Below are positions 17,113 to 28,151 of a DNA stretch of 29,092 nucleotides, piece by piece. Position numbers and translations under genes: made by a program. This DNA comes from a virus. A model generated the notes under the pieces. It made no database searches. It was given only the letters and a program-made list of their open reading frames with translations, and was not told the origin of the DNA. The first letter of the stretch is position 1. Every line of letters begins with the position of its first letter. The stretch is from positions 1 through 29,092 of IMG/VR virus record IMGVR_UViG_3300017714_000108; one strand, 5' to 3'.

Positions 17113-19310
17113 TGCAGCAAAAGTTAATTTTATATATTGGGAACAAAGGAAGTTTAGGAGTTTATACCGAAGCTAATAGGGTTGATCAGTTTAAAGACGA
17201 AAGCGTATCTTTTACTCAAACAATACAAAACGTTAAGGACTTAAAAAAAATATTTACTGAATTTACTAAAACTTTTGCATTACCTGCATCGCCAAAAAAC
17301 AATAAATTATTTAAACATTATTATAATTTTGATATTTCAGACAGCACCTCTTTTGATGCAAGAGTGAAAGTAGGTGCATCTTTAGAGTTAAACGATATAC
17401 TATTTAAAACAGGTAAAATAGCCTTAACGGGTGTTGAATTAAAAAATAACGTACCACATACATATAAGGTAACATTTTATGGCAGCACAGTTGATTTAAA
17501 AGATATTTTAGGAGATCAACAATTAAGCAGTTTAAGCGATTTAAATGATTTAAATTTAGATTATGATTTTACAACCGTAAAAGATAAAATACAAAATACA
17601 GATTATGGCGATGATATTATTTGTCCATTAATTACTAACAGCGCAAGGCTTACATATTCAACTGCAAATGCTGACAGAGCTTTAAATAATCTTTATTACA
17701 GAAATATATACCCCGAAAACGGGGTTGTATTTACGGAACTTAAATATGCGTTAAGATTGCAAAAAATTATTGATGCAATACAAAATCAATTTCCTATTAC
17801 TTTTTCTAATGATTTTTTTAATGATGCAACAAATACAGATTGGGACAATTTATATATGTGGTTGCATAGAAAAAAAGGAAATGTTACACCTGCAGAGCAA
17901 GTTTCAGTAATATGGACAACTGCTGACGAATACGGAGACTACACATGTAATGCACCCTGTATAAACTATTCAAGTGAAAACAACGGAGTTATAACTATAG
18001 GCGCTCAACAAGTAGGAAGCGATTTTTTAAGACAAACTACCGTTACTATAACACCTACTATTGGAGATACAACCGAATATTCAGCGCAAGTTTTGATGAC
18101 ACAAAACGGAGAACAAACAATAGTTTCACAATTAATAAATGTAACAGGAACTCAATTTATGGGCAACCAATTTAACAATCTAAATGGACAATTTAATGCA
18201 AATGCAGAATATGTTTTACAAATAACAACCGATCCTGCAACCCCTATTACATTACCCCCAGACGGTATTACATGGTACATTAGTTACCAAAGAATATCAG
18301 AGCAAGGAAGTCCTTATTATTTTCAAAGGTGGCAAAATGCAAATAGTTTTACAAATACAAATACAATACCTTTTAGAATACAAGAACAAATACCTAAAAT
18401 GAAAATTATTGATTTTCTTACAGGTATATTTCAAATGTTTAATTTGACTGCTTATGTAGAAGACGAAATAATTGTTGTGCAGCCTTTAGATGAATTTTAT
18501 AATAAAGCACCACAAACAGTACCGCCTATTGGAGAAGATCCCGAATTTATAGGAGTAGATATTGACAAGTATTTAGATGTAACAAAATCAACAGTAGATA
18601 TTGCTTTACCTTTTAAAGAGGTTAATTTTACTTATAAAGGCTTAAAAACATTTTTAGCACAACAATACGAACAATTAAATAATACTGGTTGGGGTAGTTT
18701 GTCATATAGTGCCAATGATTATTTTGATGCACCGCAAGAAAAATATAGTATTGAGCTACCTTTTGAGCACATGATGTTTGAAAGACTATTTAACAGCAGT
18801 AGTGGATCAACATCGACATTAATGTATGGTTATTTTGTAGACGATAACCAAGAGCCATATTTCGGAAGTCCTTTATTGTTTTATGGCTTTAGAAGACAAC
18901 CACCTTTAACATCAACATCTTTCGCATTAAAACCAACAGCAAGTAGTCCACCCGATCAAATAACGGAATATTGGATCCCTATGAACACAAAAGAAATTAA
19001 CCCTGCAACCAGCAATACATCTTTGCATTTTAACAATGAATTAATGGAGTATAACGCAAATATTTATGCAGATGCAAATCAATTTACAGGCACGTTATTT
19101 GAAAATCATTACAAAAACTATATCCAAGAAGTTTTTAATACAAGATTAAGATTAACAAAAGTTACTGCATACCTACCATACAAAATATTTAGTAGCCTGC
19201 AGTTATATGATAGAATAAGATTTAGGCAACAGAATTATAAAATTAATTCAATGACTACAAACCTAACAACAGGAAAAACAGAATTTGAATTATTAAATAC
19301 TGATATATGA
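17112..19310 (+). CDS. Large tail protein, possible hub or baseplate
   Basis: A 732-residue protein. The N-terminus (QKLILYIGNKGSLGVYTEAN), then ESVSFTQTIQNVKDLKKIFT and EFTKTFALPASPKNNKLFKH, is a pattern I associate with large tail-tip proteins of flavobacterial phages. The middle (about 280-410) is strand-rich and Thr/Gln-rich. After about 415 comes RIQEQIPKMKIIDFLTGIFQ, then a long beta region with RLFNSSSGSTSTLMYGYFVD. The end (IRFRQQNYKINSMTTNLTTG) resembles the folded end of hub-type proteins. It could be the tail hub or tip that carries the fibre. No lysozyme or peptidase motif is seen. The previous and next genes both overlap it. Confidence 0.5.
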   Translation: MQQKLILYIGNKGSLGVYTEANRVDQFKDESVSFTQTIQNVKDLKKIFTEFTKTFALPASPKNNKLFKHYYNFDISDSTSFDARVKVGASLELNDILFKTGKIALTGVELKNNVPHTYKVTFYGSTVDLKDILGDQQLSSLSDLNDLNLDYDFTTVKDKIQNTDYGDDIICPLITNSARLTYSTANADRALNNLYYRNIYPENGVVFTELKYALRLQKIIDAIQNQFPITFSNDFFNDATNTDWDNLYMWLHRKKGNVTPAEQVSVIWTTADEYGDYTCNAPCINYSSENNGVITIGAQQVGSDFLRQTTVTITPTIGDTTEYSAQVLMTQNGEQTIVSQLINVTGTQFMGNQFNNLNGQFNANAEYVLQITTDPATPITLPPDGITWYISYQRISEQGSPYYFQRWQNANSFTNTNTIPFRIQEQIPKMKIIDFLTGIFQMFNLTAYVEDEIIVVQPLDEFYNKAPQTVPPIGEDPEFIGVDIDKYLDVTKSTVDIALPFKEVNFTYKGLKTFLAQQYEQLNNTGWGSLSYSANDYFDAPQEKYSIELPFEHMMFERLFNSSSGSTSTLMYGYFVDDNQEPYFGSPLLFYGFRRQPPLTSTSFALKPTASSPPDQITEYWIPMNTKEINPATSNTSLHFNNELMEYNANIYADANQFTGTLFENHYKNYIQEVFNTRLRLTKVTAYLPYKIFSSLQLYDRIRFRQQNYKINSMTTNLTTGKTEFELLNTDI

Positions 19311-19456: not shown

Positions 19457-21225
19457 AATTAGCAGCAAATACAAAAGAAGCAGAAAAAAATGTTGATGCC
19501 TTAAATAAAAAAGTAAAGGACACAGGTAAAAGTGCAAGAAAATCGGGCAAAGAATTATCGGCAGGCATGCAGTTAGGTAATGAAGCTGTTAGAGGTTTAG
19601 ACAGATATACAGGCGGTTTAGCGTCAAAATTTGTTGCGGTTGGAAAAGCTGCAAAATTAAGCGGCAAGGCTATGAAAACTGCACTAATATCATCGGGTAT
19701 TGGTTTGTTAGTTGTTGCATTAGGTTTAGTTGTTCAGTATTGGGACGAAATTACTGAATTAGTTAATGGAGTTAGTGGCGAACAAAAAGACTTATTGGCT
19801 AACACAGAAAAAACATTAGAAACACAGCAAAGCCAATTAGACACAATAGGGCAAATGTCAAACACTTTAAAACTACAGGGTAAAAGTGAAAAAGAAATTA
19901 GAGATTTAAAAAGGCAACAAACAGATGAAATAATTACATCTACAGAATTATTATTAGAGCAACAAAAGTCACAGAAAAAAGCACAGGTTGAAGCAGCAGA
20001 ACGGAATAAGAATATTACAATGGGTATTATTACGTTTCTTACTGCACCTATTGTTATGATATTAGGGGTAATAGATGCTTTAAGTGCTGCAATGGCATCA
20101 TTAGGTATAATAGATGAAGCAACAAATTTAGCAGAGGGTTATGTTACAGGTGTGGCAGAAATGCTTTTTGATCCCGATGAGGTTGCAGCGGCAGGAGACG
20201 AAACAATTAATGAAACAGAAAAAAAATTAAGACAATTAAAAAATACTCGTGACGGTTATATATTGCAAGATAAAAAAGAAACAGAAAAAGCCGAACAAGA
20301 CAAAAGAGCTAAAGCAAAATCTGATGCACAAAAATTAACTGACATAGAAAAACAGGCTTTAAAGGACAAAAACAAAGCTATTGAAGATATTAGGAAAGCA
20401 TTAATTGTTACAGAAGATCAAGAACGAGCAGAAACATTAAGAAAAATTGGCGAAGATTATGATAACCAAATTGCATTAGCTGAAAAATATTATGGCGAAG
20501 ACAGTGAAAAAGTTTTAGAATTAAGAGCTGCAAGGAAAGTTGTTTTAGATGAGCAACAATTAACGTTTGACGAACAAGACAAAGCAAAACAAGAAAAAAT
20601 TGATGCAGATGAAGCTAAAAGATTAAAGGACAAAGAAGATGCAGAAAAGGAAGCAGCAGAAGCAAAATATGCAAGAAATCAAAAATCATTAGATGATCTT
20701 ATTGCGATAGGTGGGCAAGAGACAAAATTTGGACAAGCTATGTTAATTGCAAAACAAATATTAGCAGCCAAAGAGATGATAATGGAAATGAAAGGTACAT
20801 TATTTACTGCAAAACAATCAGCAACAAAGGCAACAGTTAAGGCTGCAGAAAGTGGGGTTGATGTTGCAGCAGGTGGAGCTAAAACTGCATCTGTTGGTTT
20901 TCCACAAAATATACCTTTAATTATAGGATATGCAGCGCAGGCAGTAGGTATTGTTTCTGCTATAAAAGGTGCAATGAAAGCTATGAAAGGAGCAAGTAAA
21001 CAAAACGTGCCAACACCAAGAATAGAAACACCGACTGCAACAGCAGGTGCGCCCGAAAGTATACCGCCAGCATTTAATATTGTAGGTGCAAGCGAAACAA
21101 ACCAATTAGCAGATGCAATAGGTGGTCAAACTCAAATACCTACTAAGGCATTTGTTGTTGCAAGTGACGTATCAACAGCGCAGGAAATGGACAGGAACAT
21201 AATTGAGGGTGCAAGTATTGGATAA
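19432..21225 (+). CDS. Tape measure protein
   Basis: A 597-residue protein, Ala/Lys/Glu-rich and mostly helical. It starts GKEKYEVELAANTKEAEKNV, the usual coiled-coil opening. Hydrophobic spans lie at about 84-103 (ALISSGIGLLVVALGLVV) and 197-226 (MGIITFLTAPIVMILGVIDA). A long charged coiled coil follows (about 255-420), then another hydrophobic stretch near 480-515 (IPLIIGYAAQAVGIVSAIKG). The combination of long helix and membrane-like spans is typical of tape measure proteins, which fix tail length and are released on DNA ejection. At about 1.5 angstrom per residue (textbook rule) it would specify a tail near 90 nm. The chaperone genes at 14391 sit upstream in the same operon. Confidence 0.8.
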   Translation: MGKEKYEVELAANTKEAEKNVDALNKKVKDTGKSARKSGKELSAGMQLGNEAVRGLDRYTGGLASKFVAVGKAAKLSGKAMKTALISSGIGLLVVALGLVVQYWDEITELVNGVSGEQKDLLANTEKTLETQQSQLDTIGQMSNTLKLQGKSEKEIRDLKRQQTDEIITSTELLLEQQKSQKKAQVEAAERNKNITMGIITFLTAPIVMILGVIDALSAAMASLGIIDEATNLAEGYVTGVAEMLFDPDEVAAAGDETINETEKKLRQLKNTRDGYILQDKKETEKAEQDKRAKAKSDAQKLTDIEKQALKDKNKAIEDIRKALIVTEDQERAETLRKIGEDYDNQIALAEKYYGEDSEKVLELRAARKVVLDEQQLTFDEQDKAKQEKIDADEAKRLKDKEDAEKEAAEAKYARNQKSLDDLIAIGGQETKFGQAMLIAKQILAAKEMIMEMKGTLFTAKQSATKATVKAAESGVDVAAGGAKTASVGFPQNIPLIIGYAAQAVGIVSAIKGAMKAMKGASKQNVPTPRIETPTATAGAPESIPPAFNIVGASETNQLADAIGGQTQIPTKAFVVASDVSTAQEMDRNIIEGASIG

Positions 21226-21248
21226 AACGCAAAATATTTAATTAAAAA

Positions 21249-21257
21249 CGTTATATA
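21249..21257 (+). promoter_or_regulatory. CGTTATATA late element before prohead protease
   Basis: An exact CGTTATATA ending 3 nt before ATG 21261. The upstream 30 bases, running from the tape measure stop codon (AAAACGCAAAATAT...AATTAAAAA), are nearly the same as those before the element at 23333, so the whole cassette is duplicated. Confidence 0.7.
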
Positions 21258-21260
21258 ATT

Positions 21261-21869
21261 ATGAAAATAATAGAGCTTATTTTAGATGAAGATCAAGAAG
21301 AAACAGGAGTCGAAGCAATATCTATTGTTGAAAGTCCTGCTATTGAAAGCGACTTTATTGCTTTAAAAGACCAAGAAATAAAATTAGCGAAAGTTGATGA
21401 AGACAAAAAAATCTTAATGGGTGCATTGTTAATACCTAATAAACCTATTTACAGAAATGGTGCAGAGGGCGAATATTATATTTATTTTTCAAAAGATACA
21501 GTACAAAAAGCATCACAGTTATATTTACAAAATGGTTATCAGCACAATAGTACATTAGAGCATCAGCAAACGTTACAAGGCTTAACATTAGTTGAAAGTT
21601 GGATTGTTGAAGATGAATTACAGGATAAAACAAGAAAATACGGACTTAATGTGCCTGTTGGCAGTTGGGTTGGATCAGTAAAAGTTAATAATGATGAAAT
21701 ATGGCAGGAGTATGTTAAAACAAATAAAGTTAAAGGTTTTTCTATTGAGGGGTATTTTGCTGACAAAATGGAAGCACCTAAGGACAAAATTAAAGAGGAA
21801 TATTCAAAAAATAAAAGTGCTGAAAAGACATTAAATAAAATCATAAATATATTGACCAATGAAAAATAA
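21261..21869 (+). CDS. Prohead protease, XkdF-like
   Basis: A 202-residue protein with the pattern of the XkdF-like (Peptidase S78-related) prohead proteases. After an acidic N-terminus (LILDEDQEETGVEAISIVES) come ILMGALLIPNKPIYR, GEYYIYFSKDTVQKASQLYL, STLEHQQTLQGLTLVESWIV with H101, and VPVGSWVGSVKVNNDEIWQE ending VKGFSIEGYF. These elements in this order define the family. It would cut scaffold and capsid proteins during head maturation. The last 15 residues (AEKTLNKIINIL) resemble the scaffold's C-terminus and the N-terminal tag of the next three proteins, perhaps a shared signal for entry to the prohead. It overlaps the next gene by 11 nt. Confidence 0.8.
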   Translation: MKIIELILDEDQEETGVEAISIVESPAIESDFIALKDQEIKLAKVDEDKKILMGALLIPNKPIYRNGAEGEYYIYFSKDTVQKASQLYLQNGYQHNSTLEHQQTLQGLTLVESWIVEDELQDKTRKYGLNVPVGSWVGSVKVNNDEIWQEYVKTNKVKGFSIEGYFADKMEAPKDKIKEEYSKNKSAEKTLNKIINILTNEK

Positions 21870-21936
21870 TATTGAAAAAGTTTACGGTAAACTACCAAAG
21901 AAAAAATTAGGTTTAAAAAAGCATAAAATTGATTTA
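21859..21936 (+). repeat. Duplicated 5' tag, copy 1 (copy 2 at 22239-22316)
   Basis: The first 78 nt of paralogues 1 and 2 encode identical 26-residue tags. Only four synonymous third-base changes occur, all in the first ten codons. The next 48 nt (21889-21936 and 22269-22316) are identical at DNA level, whereas the bodies that follow are not alignable at DNA level by eye. Confidence 0.85.
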
Positions 21937-22239
21937 AATCTTGCTGATGATTTGATGCAAAAAAGCGATGATCTTTCTACATTATTTAGTTTTGCAGAAG
22001 ATGACAACGATTTTTTAGGGGGTGCAGTACAAAGAATTTTAATGATTGATACAGAATTAATTGATAATAAAAGATTAATAGAAGAATTTCAAGAAGAATA
22101 TTTTAAATTTTTAGATTTAGCAAATGAATTAGGAGTTGAAATACCTAATGAAATATTTAATGGTTTAGCAATATCTGAACAATTATCAAGATTAACTGAT
22201 GACATGACATTTAAAATAAATTCTATAAAAAATAAATAA
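21859..22239 (+). CDS. Tagged helical protein, paralogue 1 (126 aa)
   Basis: First of three tandem relatives. Residues 1-26 (KNNIEKVYGKLPKKKLGLKK, then HKIDL) are identical to those of paralogue 2; after that the sequences diverge. The body is acidic and helical (DLMQKSDDLSTLFSFAEDDN, IEEFQEEYFKFLDLANELGV) with ANELGVEIP as a shared turn in the middle of a probable helical hairpin. It lies right after the prohead protease and before the scaffold and capsid genes. A conserved basic tag with a variable body in this place recalls T4 internal head proteins, whose N-terminal capsid-targeting tag is removed by the prohead protease. That role is my inference; no family is recognised. Confidence 0.65.
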   Translation: MKNNIEKVYGKLPKKKLGLKKHKIDLNLADDLMQKSDDLSTLFSFAEDDNDFLGGAVQRILMIDTELIDNKRLIEEFQEEYFKFLDLANELGVEIPNEIFNGLAISEQLSRLTDDMTFKINSIKNK

Positions 22240-22688
22240 TGAAAAATAACATAGAAAAGGTTTACGGAAAACTACCAAAGAAAAAATTAGGTTTAAAAAA
22301 GCATAAAATTGATTTAGCAGTTGGTAATGAATTAAGTTCATTAGAAGAACAAGTTGTATCATTATCACAAAAATTCGATGATAATGTTGGTCTTGCTTAT
22401 GATCCTTTAAGACAAGTTGAAAAAATAGTAGAAGAATTACCAGATGAAATAAATGGTTTTCAAGAATTTCTTAACGCATTACAACAATTAGAAGAACAGT
22501 ATTTAAAAGATGAACAAAAAGTTAGAGATTTTGAAAATGAATTAGGTGTAAAAATTGATAGACCAGAAGCATTAAATGTAGCATTAAAAACACTTGAATT
22601 ATATCAAAATCTTGAAGAAATAGGTAGACAAAGTATTAATGAATATCAAGAATACGCAAATCAATTAAGAGGGTTTAGAGTAGTTTAA
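22239..22688 (+). CDS. Tagged helical protein, paralogue 2 (149 aa)
   Basis: Second relative. It starts at ATG 22239, overlapping the previous stop by one base. The tag is residues 1-26, identical to paralogue 1. The body has two long acidic helices (SSLEEQVVSLSQKFDDNVGL, NALQQLEEQYLKDEQKVRDF) joined at ENELGVKIDRPEALN, then a further helix (KTLELYQNLEEIGRQSINEY). There is no membrane segment or catalytic pattern. The N-terminal tag is basic (KLPKKKLGLKKHK) and the rest acidic, which gives a strongly split charge. Like its neighbours it is a candidate prohead-internal protein; a structural role as a minor head subunit is the main alternative. Confidence 0.65.
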   Translation: MKNNIEKVYGKLPKKKLGLKKHKIDLAVGNELSSLEEQVVSLSQKFDDNVGLAYDPLRQVEKIVEELPDEINGFQEFLNALQQLEEQYLKDEQKVRDFENELGVKIDRPEALNVALKTLELYQNLEEIGRQSINEYQEYANQLRGFRVV

Positions 22689-22709
22689 GTTTATAAAATA
22701 AATAAAAAA

Positions 22710-23147
22710 ATGAAAAGTAGATTAGAAAAAGTATTAGATAAAATGCCTAATAAAAAGATAGATTTAAAAGCACAAAAAGTAGCTTTAGGGTTAATAGATG
22801 AATTTTCCTATGGAGATGTAGATAGTTTAAATGATGAAGTTAGCAGATTATCATATTCTGTTGAAGAATGGTTTGATGAAAAATTTGATCAATGGTATAC
22901 TATTGGTAGAGAGATATATTCAGTTTATTTTCAAAATTCAGAAGCATTTGTTACAAGTGCAGATGTAGCAAGAGATGAAGAAGTGTTACAAGAAATTAAA
23001 ACAAGGTCACAGGAATTAGGTGTAGATGTTTACGATGTTTACCCAAAATGGGACGAGCATAAAGAAACTTTAGAATATTTAAAATATTTAGAAAAAAGAT
23101 TTGACCAACAAAAAGAAGAATTTAGAAACGAGAGCAAATCAGTTTAA
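22710..23147 (+). CDS. Tagged helical protein, paralogue 3 (145 aa)
   Basis: Third relative. It begins KSRLEKVLDKMPNKKIDLKA, a diverged version of the same tag: same spacing of I/L-E-K-V, K-L/M-P and KK. The body is acidic and aromatic-rich (VEEWFDEKFDQWYTIGREIY), with QELGVDVYDVYPKWDEH at the place of the shared ELGV turn and a closing helix (EYLKYLEKRFDQQKEEFRNE). It is separated from paralogue 2 by 21 nt and overlaps the next tiny gene by one base. Divergence is greater than between copies 1 and 2, so it is the older duplicate. Function unknown; see paralogue 1 for the head-protein idea. Confidence 0.6.
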   Translation: MKSRLEKVLDKMPNKKIDLKAQKVALGLIDEFSYGDVDSLNDEVSRLSYSVEEWFDEKFDQWYTIGREIYSVYFQNSEAFVTSADVARDEEVLQEIKTRSQELGVDVYDVYPKWDEHKETLEYLKYLEKRFDQQKEEFRNESKSV

Positions 23148-23308
23148 TGCAAAGAAACAACAAAAATAAAACCTTTATACCAAGTAGAACATCGCCTACA
23201 GGCAGCACAAGAGCCTGTTTATGTTGGGACACTAACACTTATTCAATAAGCTGTTGTGACGGATCTATGAGGGCGCAGGGCATAGGAGTAATAACAAGAA
23301 CAGACTGA
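23147..23308 (+). CDS. Small Cys-rich protein, 53 aa
   Basis: From ATG 23147, overlapping the previous stop (TAATG), to TGA 23306-23308. The sequence has a basic start (MQRNNKNKTFIPSRTSPTGS), then RACLCWDTNTYSISCCDGSM and RAQGIGVITRTD. The pattern ACLC-(x)n-YS-x-x-CCDGS-x-RAQGIG is one I recall from many flavobacterial phages. Four cysteines in two pairs (CLC, CC) could bind zinc. Its placement, always near head genes as far as I recall, suggests a small virion or assembly part. There is no enzyme signature. Confidence 0.55.
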   Translation: MQRNNKNKTFIPSRTSPTGSTRACLCWDTNTYSISCCDGSMRAQGIGVITRTD

Positions 23309-23332
23309 AAACGCAAAATATAAATTAAAAAT

Positions 23333-23341
23333 CGTTATATA
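23333..23341 (+). promoter_or_regulatory. CGTTATATA late element before scaffold and capsid
   Basis: An exact CGTTATATA ending 6 nt before ATG 23348. The segment from the preceding stop codon onward (GAAAACGCAAAATATAAATT, then AAAAAT) closely matches that at 21226-21248. It would serve the most strongly expressed structural genes. Confidence 0.7.
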
Positions 23342-23347
23342 AGTATT

Positions 23348-23938
23348 ATGAAAGCAACCAAAATGTTAAATGACATTAAAACACTTTTAAACATCGAGGT
23401 AAAACTCGAGGAAATGAAGTTAGAAAATGGCACTGTAATAACAACAGATGCATTAGAAAAAGGCAACGAAGTTTTTATCGTTACCGAAGATGAAAAAGTG
23501 GCTATGCCAGTAGGGGAGTATATCCTCGAAGACGGTAGACTACTAATTGTATCGGAAGAGGGTATTATTGGAGACATTAAAGATGTATCAGATGAAGTGC
23601 CAGCAGAAGAAACAACAGAAGATTTAGAAGAAACTATTGAAACGGAAGTACCCGAAGAAGTGGCAACAGAAGTAGAAGCAATAGTTGAAGCAGTAGTTGA
23701 AGTAATTGCACCAGTTATTGAAGAAGTTAAAACAGAAGTTGAAGAACTAAAAAAACAATATGCATCTTTAATGGACGGAGAAGAAAAAAAGAAAGAGGAA
23801 AAGAAAAAGGAGGACTTATCGGCTGCAAAAAAGCCAATTAGGAGAACATCTAAAAAACCAACCAAAACTAAAGTAGAATTTGGAACAGGTAAATTTTCTA
23901 CAACATTAGACAGAGTATTAAATAAATTAAATAAATAA
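23348..23938 (+). CDS. Capsid scaffolding protein
   Basis: A 196-residue protein directly before the capsid gene. The N-terminal part (VKLEEMKLENGTVITTDALE, EVFIVTEDEKVAMPVGEYIL) is a small beta domain often seen in flavobacterial phage scaffold proteins. Residues about 80-135 are very acidic and helical (EETTEDLEETIETEVPEEVA, TEVEAIVEAVVEVIAPVIEE). A Lys-rich stretch (GEEKKKEEKKKE, then AAKKPIRRTSKKPTKTK) leads to the end GTGKFSTTLDRVLNKLNK. Acidic coiled body plus a basic C-terminal helix is the usual scaffold design, where the helix binds the coat protein. The prohead protease at 21261 would degrade it. The gene precedes the capsid gene by 7 nt. Confidence 0.65.
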   Translation: MKATKMLNDIKTLLNIEVKLEEMKLENGTVITTDALEKGNEVFIVTEDEKVAMPVGEYILEDGRLLIVSEEGIIGDIKDVSDEVPAEETTEDLEETIETEVPEEVATEVEAIVEAVVEVIAPVIEEVKTEVEELKKQYASLMDGEEKKKEEKKKEDLSAAKKPIRRTSKKPTKTKVEFGTGKFSTTLDRVLNKLNK

Positions 23939-23945
23939 AATAAAA

Positions 23946-24926
23946 ATGGCAAATTTAAGAAAAACAAATCTTGCAACCGCAGTAAATATTACAACAACCT
24001 ATGCAGGAGAATTTGCAGGGGAGTATATTGCTGCTGCATTACTATCTGCATCAACTATTGATGACGGGGGTTTAACAGTTAAAGCAAATATTGCTTACAA
24101 AGAAGTAATCAAAAAATTAGCAACAGGAAGTTTAGTTACTGCAGCAGGTTGTGACTTTACACCTAATTCATCTGTAACATTAACAGAAAGAATTATACAG
24201 CCTGTAGAGTTACAAGTAAATTTACAACTTTGTAAATATGATTTTGTGAACGATTGGGAAGCACAATCTATGGGTTACGGTTTAGGTCAATCATTACCGC
24301 CTAAATTTTCTGATTTTATGATTGCACATGTAGCAGCAGAAGTTGCACAGAATACTGAATTTTGTATTTGGCAAGGAGATACAGCAGGCGCAACGCATAC
24401 ATCATTTGACGGTTTCGAAAAACTAATTGCAGCATCAGCAGCAGCAGGGGATATCCCAGCAGCACAGCAAGTGGCAGCAGTTGCAGGCGGTTTAGACGCA
24501 ACAAATATTATAGCTGAACTTTCAAAAGTAGTTGATGCAATTCCAGCACAACTTTACGGAAAAGAAGATTTATTTTTATATGTTGGATCAAAGGCAGCTA
24601 AACATTATGTGCAGGCATTAGGTGGTTTTGCAGCAAATGGATTGGGTGCAAATGGTGTAAATGCACAGGGTACTCAATGGTGGAACAACGGAAGCCTAAC
24701 TGTTAACGGTGTAAAAATCTTTGTATGTCCTGGAATGTCAGACAACAAAATGTATGCAGCACAACGTTCTAACCTATATTTTGGAACTGGATTGTTAAAT
24801 GATACAAATTCTATTAAAGTATTGGATATGGCAGATTTAGATGCTTCAAACAATGTAAGAATGGTAATGCGTTTTACATCAGCAGTACAATTTGGAATTG
24901 CAGAGGACTTAGTAGAATACGCTTAA
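23946..24926 (+). CDS. Major capsid protein, HK97 fold
   Basis: A 326-residue protein, Ala/Gly-rich, ending at TAA 24924-24926 just before a terminator. Features fit the HK97 fold as found in flavobacterial phages: an N-terminal region (LATAVNITTTYAGEFAGEYI), a spine with FCIWQGDTAGATHTSFDGFE, a helix pair with ELSKVVDAIPAQLYGKEDLF, the strand segment LYVGSKAAKHYVQALGGFAA, then VKIFVCPGMSDNKMYAAQRS and a C-terminal strand (MRFTSAVQFGIAEDLVEYA). YVGSKAAKHYxQAL and the GMSDNKMYAA...NLYFGT string are typical. Expected to form the icosahedral shell after scaffold removal. Codon use matches the neighbours and upstream signals point to high expression. Confidence 0.85.
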   Translation: MANLRKTNLATAVNITTTYAGEFAGEYIAAALLSASTIDDGGLTVKANIAYKEVIKKLATGSLVTAAGCDFTPNSSVTLTERIIQPVELQVNLQLCKYDFVNDWEAQSMGYGLGQSLPPKFSDFMIAHVAAEVAQNTEFCIWQGDTAGATHTSFDGFEKLIAASAAAGDIPAAQQVAAVAGGLDATNIIAELSKVVDAIPAQLYGKEDLFLYVGSKAAKHYVQALGGFAANGLGANGVNAQGTQWWNNGSLTVNGVKIFVCPGMSDNKMYAAQRSNLYFGTGLLNDTNSIKVLDMADLDASNNVRMVMRFTSAVQFGIAEDLVEYA

Positions 24927-25671: not shown

Positions 25672-26100
25672 ATGATTATATTAAGTACAAGTGCAGCAGC
25701 ACAAAATTTAAAAGTAATAGCAAGAGATTATTTAGACAGTTTTATAATGTCTATACGTGACGACAGCACAAACGTTTCAAAACACTACGAAATTACGGGA
25801 GCAACAACAGTAGGTAATTATTTAACATTTACAAATATTTTTAACCCTGTTTTAGTAGAAAATCATTTTTACGATGTTACGTTAGGGGTTGCAAATAGCC
25901 TTTGGAATACTAATATAAAACTTTGGCAAGACGATCAAACTTTATGGAATGTAGATGATACAAGTGACGGAGTTATTTATAAGGATAAAATATTTTGCAC
26001 AGACCAAGATATAGACCAAGAAAACAACGACTATTATAAAATAAATAAAGGGCAGTATATTAGCTCTAATAGTTACGATAATACTTATTTAGTAATATGA
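25672..26100 (+). CDS. Structural protein before portal, 142 aa
   Basis: I use ATG 25672, 4 nt after the late element. The frame is open further upstream, but that part overlaps the terminator and is not protein-like. It begins MIILSTSAAAQNLKVIARDY and continues with a beta pattern (FIMSIRDDSTNVSKHYEIT, YLTFTNIFNPVLVENHFYDV). The later part has GVIYKDKIFCTDQDIDQEN and ends YDNTYLVI. I recall similar proteins with the YKDKIFxT pattern in flavobacterial phages, at the head or portal locus, without assigned function. It may be a head decoration or neck part. The next gene overlaps it (ATGA). Confidence 0.5.
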   Translation: MIILSTSAAAQNLKVIARDYLDSFIMSIRDDSTNVSKHYEITGATTVGNYLTFTNIFNPVLVENHFYDVTLGVANSLWNTNIKLWQDDQTLWNVDDTSDGVIYKDKIFCTDQDIDQENNDYYKINKGQYISSNSYDNTYLVI

Positions 26101-28151
26101 AACAAAAAAGAAATAGTAAAGGGCAATTTAGTAAAACAAAAGTGTCGGAGTTTGGTTTTGTTAATTTAGGCACATATACAAGTCCCGAAATAAAAGAAGT
26201 AAACGGGGAAGATTGGATTGAGTACGGTGCAGATAATGATTATTTTCAATATTTAATAGACAGATACAATGGAAGTCCTACTAATAACGCTGCTATTAAT
26301 GGCATTAGTCAAGCAATATACGGAAAAGGGCTAAATGCATCGGACAGCAACAAAAAACCTAATGAGTACGCACAAATGATTGCATTATTTAAAAAAGATG
26401 TTGTTAGAAAGGTATGTTACGATTTAAAATTAATGGGTAACGCTGCAATACAAGTAATTTATTCAAAAGACCATAGCAAAATTGTTCAATTAGAGCATAT
26501 ACCTATTGAAACATTAAGAGCAGAAAAATGCGATGATGACGGAAAAATACCAGCATATTATTATTTTGAGGATTGGGCAAATATTACAAGAAACGATGAT
26601 CCGTTACGCATACCAGCTTTTGGAATGTCTAAAGAGGGCATCGAAATATATTATATTAAGCCATACAGAAGCGGTTTTTATTATTATAGTCCAGTAGATT
26701 ATCAAGGCGGTTTACAATATGCAGAACTTGAAGAGGAAGTGTCAAATTACCACCTCAACAACATTATGAATGGTCTTGCACCGAGTATGTTAATTAACTT
26801 TAACAACGGCACACCTAATCAGCAAGAGCGACAATTAATTGAAAAGAAAATTGCACAAAAATTCAGCGGTACAAGCAACGCAGGAAAATTTATACTTGCA
26901 TTTAATGATAACAAAGAAAGTCAAGCAGAAATAACACCTGTACAATTAAGCGATGCACATAACCAATACCAGTTTTTAAGTGAAGAAAGTACCCAAAAAA
27001 TAATGGTTGCACATCGTATTGTATCGCCAATGCTGTTAGGTATTAAAGACGGTAGCGGTTTAGGTAATAATGCAGAAGAAATAAAAACTGCATCTTTACT
27101 TATGGATAACACCGTTATAAGACCGTTTCAAGAATTATTAATAGACTGCTTCGATCAGATATTAGCATACAATGAGATTAGCTTAAACCTATACTTTACA
27201 ACATTACAACCTTTAGAGTTTACAGATGTAGATAAATCAGTACAAGATGACGAAACTATTGAGGAAGAAACAGGAATTGAAAAGCGCAAGTTTAGTTTTA
27301 AAAAGATTGACGGAAAAGAAGCATACGAAACAAAAGAGGAAGCAATAAAGGTAGCAGAGGAACAGGGGTGCGGTGGTTATCACGAACACGATGTAGAGGG
27401 GGTTACATATTATATGCCATGTGAAACACATCAAGAATTAAAAAAACCATGTTGGGACGGTTACGAACAATACGGTACAAAAATAAAAGACGGAAAAGAA
27501 GTGCCTAATTGCGTAAAAATGTCAAACGAGTTTTTGTCAGACGAAATGGGACAAGCAATACTTGATAATTTAAAAGGCGAAACTATTACTGACGAATGGG
27601 AGTTAGTTGACGAATTAAGTGCAGATGAAAATATAAGCGATGAAGATTGGGCAAACATTTGTATAAAAAAAAAGAGAAGTAAACTACAAAAGTTTTATGA
27701 CGAAATTACATCAAAAAATAACGGAAGCGCAGAAAGTTTTTTAGATAGTGAGTATTTTAAAATACGTTACAAATATGTTGTAGGCTCTAATAAGCCAATG
27801 GAAGCAGGTAATCAGTCAAGAGATTTTTGTAAAAATATGATGCGTTTGTCAGATGACGGAATTATATACAGAAAAGAAGATATTGATCAAGCAAGTTTTA
27901 GGGGGGTAAATAATGAATTTGGACATAAAGGTCAAAACTATAGTTTGTTTAAATTTAAGGGCGGAATTTACTGCAGGCATAAATGGGTAAAATTATTATA
28001 TAGAATGAAAGCTACAACGGAGCCGTCAAATGATTTAGATGATTATAAAAGAACAAGAGAAATACCAGCAAAATATAATATAAACCCAACGGGAACAACT
28101 GAAAGCGAAATTGCACCAATTAATATGCCCGACAGGGGTGCATACAAATAA
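26097..28151 (+). CDS. Portal protein with long C-terminal extension
   Basis: A 684-residue protein. Residues about 15-380 look like a portal: SPEIKEVNGEDWIEYGADND, YNGSPTNNAAINGISQAIYG, a beta region, then the long wing/stem part with STQKIMVAHRIVSPMLLGIK and a C-terminal helix RPFQELLIDCFDQIL. The extension (about 385-684) is unusual: CGGYHEHDVEGVTYYMPC (C425, H429, H431, C442) could bind zinc; KPCWDGYEQYGTKIKDGKEV is a short repeat-like motif; and residues about 555-640 (SRDFCKNMMRLSDDGIIYRK, SFRGVNNEFGHKGQNYSLFK, KGGIYCRHKWVKL) resemble a head-morphogenesis domain often separate in other phages. The portal is the entry point for DNA and binds TerL. It may have gained a fused internal-head or assembly domain. 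Confidence 0.75.
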   Translation: MKQKRNSKGQFSKTKVSEFGFVNLGTYTSPEIKEVNGEDWIEYGADNDYFQYLIDRYNGSPTNNAAINGISQAIYGKGLNASDSNKKPNEYAQMIALFKKDVVRKVCYDLKLMGNAAIQVIYSKDHSKIVQLEHIPIETLRAEKCDDDGKIPAYYYFEDWANITRNDDPLRIPAFGMSKEGIEIYYIKPYRSGFYYYSPVDYQGGLQYAELEEEVSNYHLNNIMNGLAPSMLINFNNGTPNQQERQLIEKKIAQKFSGTSNAGKFILAFNDNKESQAEITPVQLSDAHNQYQFLSEESTQKIMVAHRIVSPMLLGIKDGSGLGNNAEEIKTASLLMDNTVIRPFQELLIDCFDQILAYNEISLNLYFTTLQPLEFTDVDKSVQDDETIEEETGIEKRKFSFKKIDGKEAYETKEEAIKVAEEQGCGGYHEHDVEGVTYYMPCETHQELKKPCWDGYEQYGTKIKDGKEVPNCVKMSNEFLSDEMGQAILDNLKGETITDEWELVDELSADENISDEDWANICIKKKRSKLQKFYDEITSKNNGSAESFLDSEYFKIRYKYVVGSNKPMEAGNQSRDFCKNMMRLSDDGIIYRKEDIDQASFRGVNNEFGHKGQNYSLFKFKGGIYCRHKWVKLLYRMKATTEPSNDLDDYKRTREIPAKYNINPTGTTESEIAPINMPDRGAYK

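Follow-up and report, generated by a model that had tools for sequence, protein, structure and literature searches.

T4, P1, and other large phages are known to have internal, injected head proteins that are targeted by a tag, and the question raised here is whether three tandem genes of a small marine phage encode proteins of this kind. The genes share an N-terminal tag and lie between a prohead protease and a scaffold-like protein in an uncultivated virus record of 29,092 bases (IMG/VR IMGVR_UViG_3300017714_000108), which as a whole is hereafter called the window. The original prediction had placed three tagged ORFs in tandem at this position, and their coordinates, the identity of the tags, and the Pfam PF14550 match of the protease all agree with it. 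The host is likely flavobacterial; that of the nearest cultured relatives is a Nonlabens/Persicivirga strain, and two matches to bacterial assemblies (one Flavobacteriaceae, one Bacteroidia MAG) could stem from phage contigs that were placed in these bins.

Gene order around the tagged genes

All features described here are on the plus strand. The left neighbor of the slot (21261-21869) encodes a 202-aa prohead protease of the Peptidase_S78_2/XkdF-like family (PF14550, E 1.1e-15), in which H101 and S161 are invariant in alignment A2. The gene for the first tagged protein (T1, 126 aa; 21859-22239) overlaps the protease gene by 11 nt, the start of the second (T2, 149 aa; 22239-22688) overlaps the T1 stop (TAATG), and the third (T3, 145 aa) follows at 22710-23147. 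Downstream of T3 lie, in this order, a 53-aa cysteine-rich ORF (23147-23308) that the original prediction had left unmentioned and whose start sits on the T3 stop in the same type of overlap as that of T2 on T1, a scaffold-like ORF of 196 aa (23348-23938), and the major capsid protein (MCP; 23946-24926), whose role is assigned from its position and family (phrog_11320, E 8e-32) and which has a relative in Nonlabens phage P12024S. The portal protein (phrog_33693, E 6e-96; PF04860) is encoded at 26097-28151. The start/stop overlaps would link translation to that of the protease gene, and the arrangement suggests that the tagged genes and the cysteine-rich ORF are read together with the head genes.

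The N-terminal half of PHROG 24921 matches the protease (E 3e-54) and its C-terminal half the scaffold-like protein (E 7e-9), and in phages P12024S/L the two are a single 349-aa protein with the MCP next to it; the slot thus sits between what are two halves of one gene in P12024S/L. The cysteine-rich ORF (FIPSRTSPTGSTRACLCWD..CCDGSMRAQGIGVITRTD), which had no PHROG or Pfam family match, closes the slot in nearly all relatives and is highly conserved in them, with or without tagged ORFs. Separately, we observed a 39-nt leader with 85% identity between its two copies, AAAACGCAAAATAT..TTAAAAA-CGTTATATAA, immediately 5' of the start codons of the protease and the scaffold (21224-21262 and 23308-23346). 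It is possibly a duplicated promoter or translation start, and a looser form of the pattern had 5 matches in the window versus 1.5 expected.

A common tag and a divergent family of bodies

Residues 1-26 of T1 and T2 (MKNNIEKVYGKLPKKKLGLKKHKIDL; 21859-21936 and 22239-22316) are identical at 26 of 26 positions, as originally claimed, and T3 carries a related, diverged version, MKSRLEKVLDKMPNKKIDLKAQKVAL (22710-22787; type KSRLEKVLDKMPNKK); the tag HMM matches the tags of both T1 and T3. The T1 and T2 tags differ in 4 of 78 nt, and a 48-nt exact repeat (21889-21936 in T1, 22269-22316 in T2) ends precisely at codon 26, i.e., at the border between tag and body. DNA repeat family D1 has three copies in the window, and with T1 as query the only matches in the whole 29-kb record were T2 (E 1e-15) and T3 (7e-5). 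In the tag, a short amphipathic helix (I/LEKVYxKLP) precedes a basic linker whose end reads K-V/I-x-L. Past the tag the three sequences are no longer alike. The tags are basic (+7, +7, and +5 for T1, T2, and T3) and the bodies acidic (about -13, -14, and -16), so that the description of a shared basic tag on diverging acidic helical bodies stood in its charges and its divergence; it needs correction in that an LG[VIALMT] turn was present in 148 of 150 bodies, and since these are helical proteins we take the bodies to be one divergent family and not unrelated cargoes. As a side observation, one tagged protein (L138:4946-5446) has an apparently doubled tag linker (KVDLKSQKVNLKAHKVALGL), and the number of K-x-E-L units in other tags ranges from one to three, which looks as though the linker lengthens through repetition.

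AF2 models were made of two of the proteins. The core of the tag was predicted as a short, flexible helix (residues 4-10, low confidence), which leads through a loop into a body folded with confidence: T1 forms a helical hairpin and T3 a three-helix bundle. Fold searches with T3 in the PDB and in viral models gave nothing below E 0.5. T1 matched no Pfam or PHROG family at E 0.01, and 31 tagged members had no consistent Pfam or PHROG family and no recognizable effector domain in their bodies. One of the 31 matched phiKZ_IP of Pfam (E 5e-4), which we read as helix composition, and the PADLOC, Pfam, and PDB sequence matches to bodies were set aside as weak coiled-coil matches. In tblastn searches of cultured phages, T1 found no relative of a tagged protein, a T3-like consensus found only phiKZ-type shell proteins (E 0.8), and the tagged protein of L057 found none. 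The literature yielded no virion proteomics for this phage group.

Occupancy of the slot among relatives

More than 590 relatives of the MCP are present in IMG/VR; scans with the tagged proteins brought about a hundred loci, and the whole set comprised 162 non-redundant loci. The original prediction had proposed that copy number and body diversity be compared among related phages, and the comparison revealed zero to three copies, strict synteny, and high turnover of bodies. The 162 loci contain 131 distinct tagged ORFs, all in the orientation of the head genes, with every one (131/131) located between the protease and the cysteine-rich ORF or scaffold. Among 104 distinct slots, those with a standard protease held no tagged ORF in 30 cases, one in 20, two in 30, and three in 5, and those with an extended protease held one in 12, two in 3, and none in 1 (L076), while in three the contig stops within the protease; the way in which the loci were fetched influences these proportions. 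Thirteen long contigs (21-31 kb) had the tag only in the slot or in a fused protease, and three long contigs of tagless relatives had it nowhere. A protease-profile scan of bacterial genomes produced two MAG contigs only, with a tagged ORF in neither.

About one in three of the examined slots holds no tagged ORF, and we therefore regard the tagged proteins as dispensable accessories. A tree of the MCP requires at least 11 changes of occupancy (27 with shuffled labels) and, for the fused state described below, 9 changes for 12 fused tips (11.5 with shuffled labels), which indicates that the cassette is often gained, lost, or exchanged. Many mostly tagless relatives have a further variable slot, in which a 139-aa protein is encoded between scaffold and MCP (L029:5554-5973, L066:5511-5930, and others), and in one locus a 149-aa protein lies between the cysteine-rich ORF and the scaffold (L005:3355-3804). 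Decoration proteins are a possible identity for the products of these extra slots.

Replacement of bodies and exchange of tags

The clearest view of body turnover came from L014, a near-twin of the window with 95-99% nucleotide identity across the protease, the cysteine-rich ORF, the scaffold, and the start of the MCP. Its tags are kept (24-25 of 26 residues relative to T1 and T2), whereas the first two bodies share just 21-26 matches in about 87-118 residues with those of T1 and T2 and have been replaced; the third body is a T3 homologue (68/116). Two of three bodies thus differ between these near-twins. Elsewhere in the window, at 18000-19200 and 20200-20500, strong divergence from L014 also affects parts of two other genes, one in the tail region (732 aa) and the one for the tape measure. 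In the reverse situation, L008 and L011 have the same body (99% over 126 residues) under two different types of tag, and the synonymous divergence of 0.013 in the body as compared to 0.82 in the tag locates a recombination point at the tag/body border.

The dN/dS ratios, which are estimates from few sites per pair, were 0.02-0.07 for the neighboring protease and scaffold genes, mostly 0-0.3 for the tags, and 0.02-1.5 for the bodies, mostly above 0.25 and below 1 in most pairs. Among the body-body BLAST pairs, only those of high identity were used, because the weak ones had been run without composition correction.

Bodies fused to the prohead protease

The protease has a length of 279-323 aa instead of about 200 in 15 distinct slots, the C-terminal extension being a body of the tagged type. 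The C-terminal helix of the protease (e.g., LLSKIESIVKGEKVEL) continues into the body in these forms, and the joint reads KGEKVEL or a variant of it, i.e., the KVEL element of the tag. From EKVELGLVDD onward, the fused body of L156 aligns with the free tagged body of L178 over 116 aa at 89% identity, and the fused body of L046 is 58% identical over 88 aa to the free body of L011. These pairwise BLAST comparisons are independent of the tag HMM, which was retrained with some of the fused proteases, so that its own matches to such proteases are not independent. The second half of the tag, with its K-V-x-L border element, and the body are common to free and fused forms, but where the free forms have the first half (the I/LEKVYxKLP helix) the fused ones have the protease. 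Covalent attachment to the protease thus appears to substitute for this first half. Proheads are the place where prohead proteases act (T4 gp21, HK97 gp4, SPN3US gp245), and for this reason the fusions are the best evidence from which we infer, by comparison of sequences, that the first half of the tag acts as a prohead address.

A search at the KVEL border for a cleavage motif gave a suggestive outcome only, with no significant motif in other substrates. The protease of L076 (2605-3603) bears another, unrelated C-terminal extension (KKVNNKCATQVGKIRAQQLADKKPISMQTIKRMFSYLSRAE..CGTISYLLWGG), so the C-terminus of this protease accepts other fusions too.

A helix motif possibly shared with scaffold and protease

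An eight-residue PSSM of the tag core, built from tags only, was scanned over 7,797 positions of the 32 other proteins of the window. Its best match was the C-terminus of the scaffold (LDRVLNKL, residue 187 of 196; 23906-23929), a likeness spotted by eye before the test, and its second best was the C-terminal helix of the protease (LNKIINIL, residue 191 of 202; 21831-21854). When the columns were permuted, a single trial among 2,000 (0.05%) gave both C-termini the two highest ranks, and rank 1 for the scaffold alone was reached by 0.95% of permutations. Among relatives, the best tag-core site fell within the last 25 residues in 140 of 141 scaffolds but in only 64 of 98 proteases. In the reverse direction, a model of the scaffold tail ranked the T3 tag third and a model of the protease tail had no tag among its top eight, and because these scans were weaker than the forward one we keep the shared helix as a supporting point and not as proof. 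The likeness raises the idea that the tag perhaps binds a site that is also used by the C-termini of scaffold and protease. The second-best match of the protease-tail profile was the N-terminus of the scaffold (LNDIKTLL), perhaps a relic of the fusion of protease and scaffold that P12024S has.

Discussion

Taken as a whole, these results probably, although by no means certainly, reflect a set of accessory internal head proteins that are targeted to the prohead by the tag and carry hypervariable cargo. We infer targeting from the tag and its replacement by the protease; cleavage at K-V-x-L, ejection, and an anti-host role are speculative. The helix of the tag would dock inside the assembling prohead, on the inner face of the shell or on the core, so that the variable body, which is acidic and helical, would become enclosed in the head. 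The prohead protease would then cut the tag, probably at or near K-V-x-L, freeing the body, and a fused protease would trim itself. The freed body would stay with the DNA, be packaged, and probably be ejected into the host, where fast-changing bodies might counter host functions; for the exchange of bodies, the tag DNA would offer recombination a stretch of homology. Points that count against this explanation are the strong purifying selection in some body pairs (L132/L134, L161/L168), the weaker reverse motif scans, the lack of an established cleavage motif, the many empty slots, and bodies in which neither an effector domain nor, for T3, a fold match was found. A broader generalization, which we advance only tentatively and do not yet consider probable, is that of tag-and-cargo delivery in small Bacteroidota phages, in which one helix motif would be shared by scaffold, protease, and recombining injected anti-host proteins, the cargo alternatively being a cleavable protease fusion.

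The main rival is an auxiliary scaffold role (CpmB- or DarA/Hdf-like), in which the proteins would be auxiliary scaffolds or factors of head size or assembly: the tag would dock on the coat, and the bodies would tune assembly and be cleaved or expelled before packaging, never to be delivered. This would account well for a scaffold-like tag core, helical bodies, a slot beside the scaffold, and optional presence, and it has precedents in the competition of SaPI CpmB with scaffold and in P1 DarA/Hdf (PMC12810830). However, if bodies had to fit the same shell, their extreme turnover beside near-identical capsid, protease, and scaffold genes would be unexpected, and the presence of zero to three copies among phages with closely related MCPs and the relaxed dN/dS of bodies as compared to head genes point the same way, making this role rather unlikely. 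Less likely still are late-expressed effectors acting inside the cell, or immune decoys, in either case no part of the virion, whose tag would be an interaction motif for protease or scaffold (e.g., shielding them from host sensing or regulating cleavage). Protease fusion and motif sharing do tie the proteins to protease and scaffold and not to the finished head, and fast evolution of bodies fits an arms race, but a body fused to the protease would enter the prohead with it, since the protease acts there, and the design of the tag matches capsid-targeting precedents (PMC9026906, PMC9024508). A neutral recombination hotspot, in which tag repeats drive duplication and exchange of bodies under little functional constraint, would suit the 48-nt exact repeats at the tag/body border, the variable copy number, and the at least 11 occupancy changes on the MCP tree, but it is very improbable given frames that stay open, a common range of lengths, the LGV turn, a predicted helical fold, and dN/dS below 1 in most body pairs.

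If the internal head protein explanation is confirmed, the principle would also hold for marine phages of about 30 kb, which form an abundant group. More than 100 candidate effectors that evolve fast would then be catalogued, and a short tag would be at hand with which proteins could be loaded into heads of this type. Natural fusions of protease and body allow the idea of targeting to be tested directly.

Comparison with known systems

The nearest cultured head module is that of Nonlabens phages P12024S/L (NC_018271, NC_018272), with related protease and scaffold and an MCP of about 26% identity; unlike the window, these phages have protease and scaffold in one gene and no slot, and no tagged protein was found in them. 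More distant parallels exist in SPN3US and phiKZ, where two head proteins have N-terminal propeptides of 20-24 residues and the SPN3US protease gp245 loses a C-terminal propeptide by self-cleavage (PMC10052503). The tags would resemble such propeptides and the extended proteases resemble gp245 in having a C-terminal extension, but SPN3US and phiKZ are giant myoviruses with other sequences. SaPI1 CpmB, which competes with the 80alpha scaffold for a site on the coat and redirects head size (cited in PMC12810830), is likewise an accessory protein, although binding of our tag to coat would be a prediction from sequence, and CpmB is a size-redirecting satellite protein whereas here an N-terminal tag heads a variable set.

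The P1 Dar proteins (DarB, DarA, and Hdf; PMC9024508, PMC12810830) are also accessory head proteins, and the first 30 residues of DarB are sufficient for its packaging (PMC9024508), a signal close in length and position to our tag. DarB and DarA are much larger, however, a set of tagged paralogues is not described for P1, and homology was compared via family libraries. In T4, IPI, IPII, and IPIII bear a capsid targeting sequence (CTS), the propeptides of IPII and IPIII are identical, and the set varies among relatives (PMC9026906). The T4 IP/CTS pattern of a common tag on several paralogues with divergent bodies is present here, and the two sets are also alike in the shortness and N-terminal position of the (here putative) targeting propeptide, in having a prohead protease in the pathway, and in being accessory. 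They differ in the length of the tag (about 26 aa versus 10-19 in T4), in the bodies, which are acidic and helical here and basic in T4, and in their setting, i.e., a slot between protease and scaffold in a genome of about 30 kb with a tape measure protein, where the protease in some cases carries a body as a fusion. No convincing sequence homology was found between the tagged proteins and the internal proteins of T4 or phiKZ. The proposed T4-like design is strongly supported among relatives by strict synteny, body turnover, tag/body recombination, and protease fusions but not as regards sequence homology or basic bodies. On our best reading, the tagged set would resemble T4 IP/CTS and P1 DarB in the way it works while being homologous to neither, and what would be new relative to T4 is that it occurs in an unrelated small phage and that some of its bodies are fused to the head protease itself.
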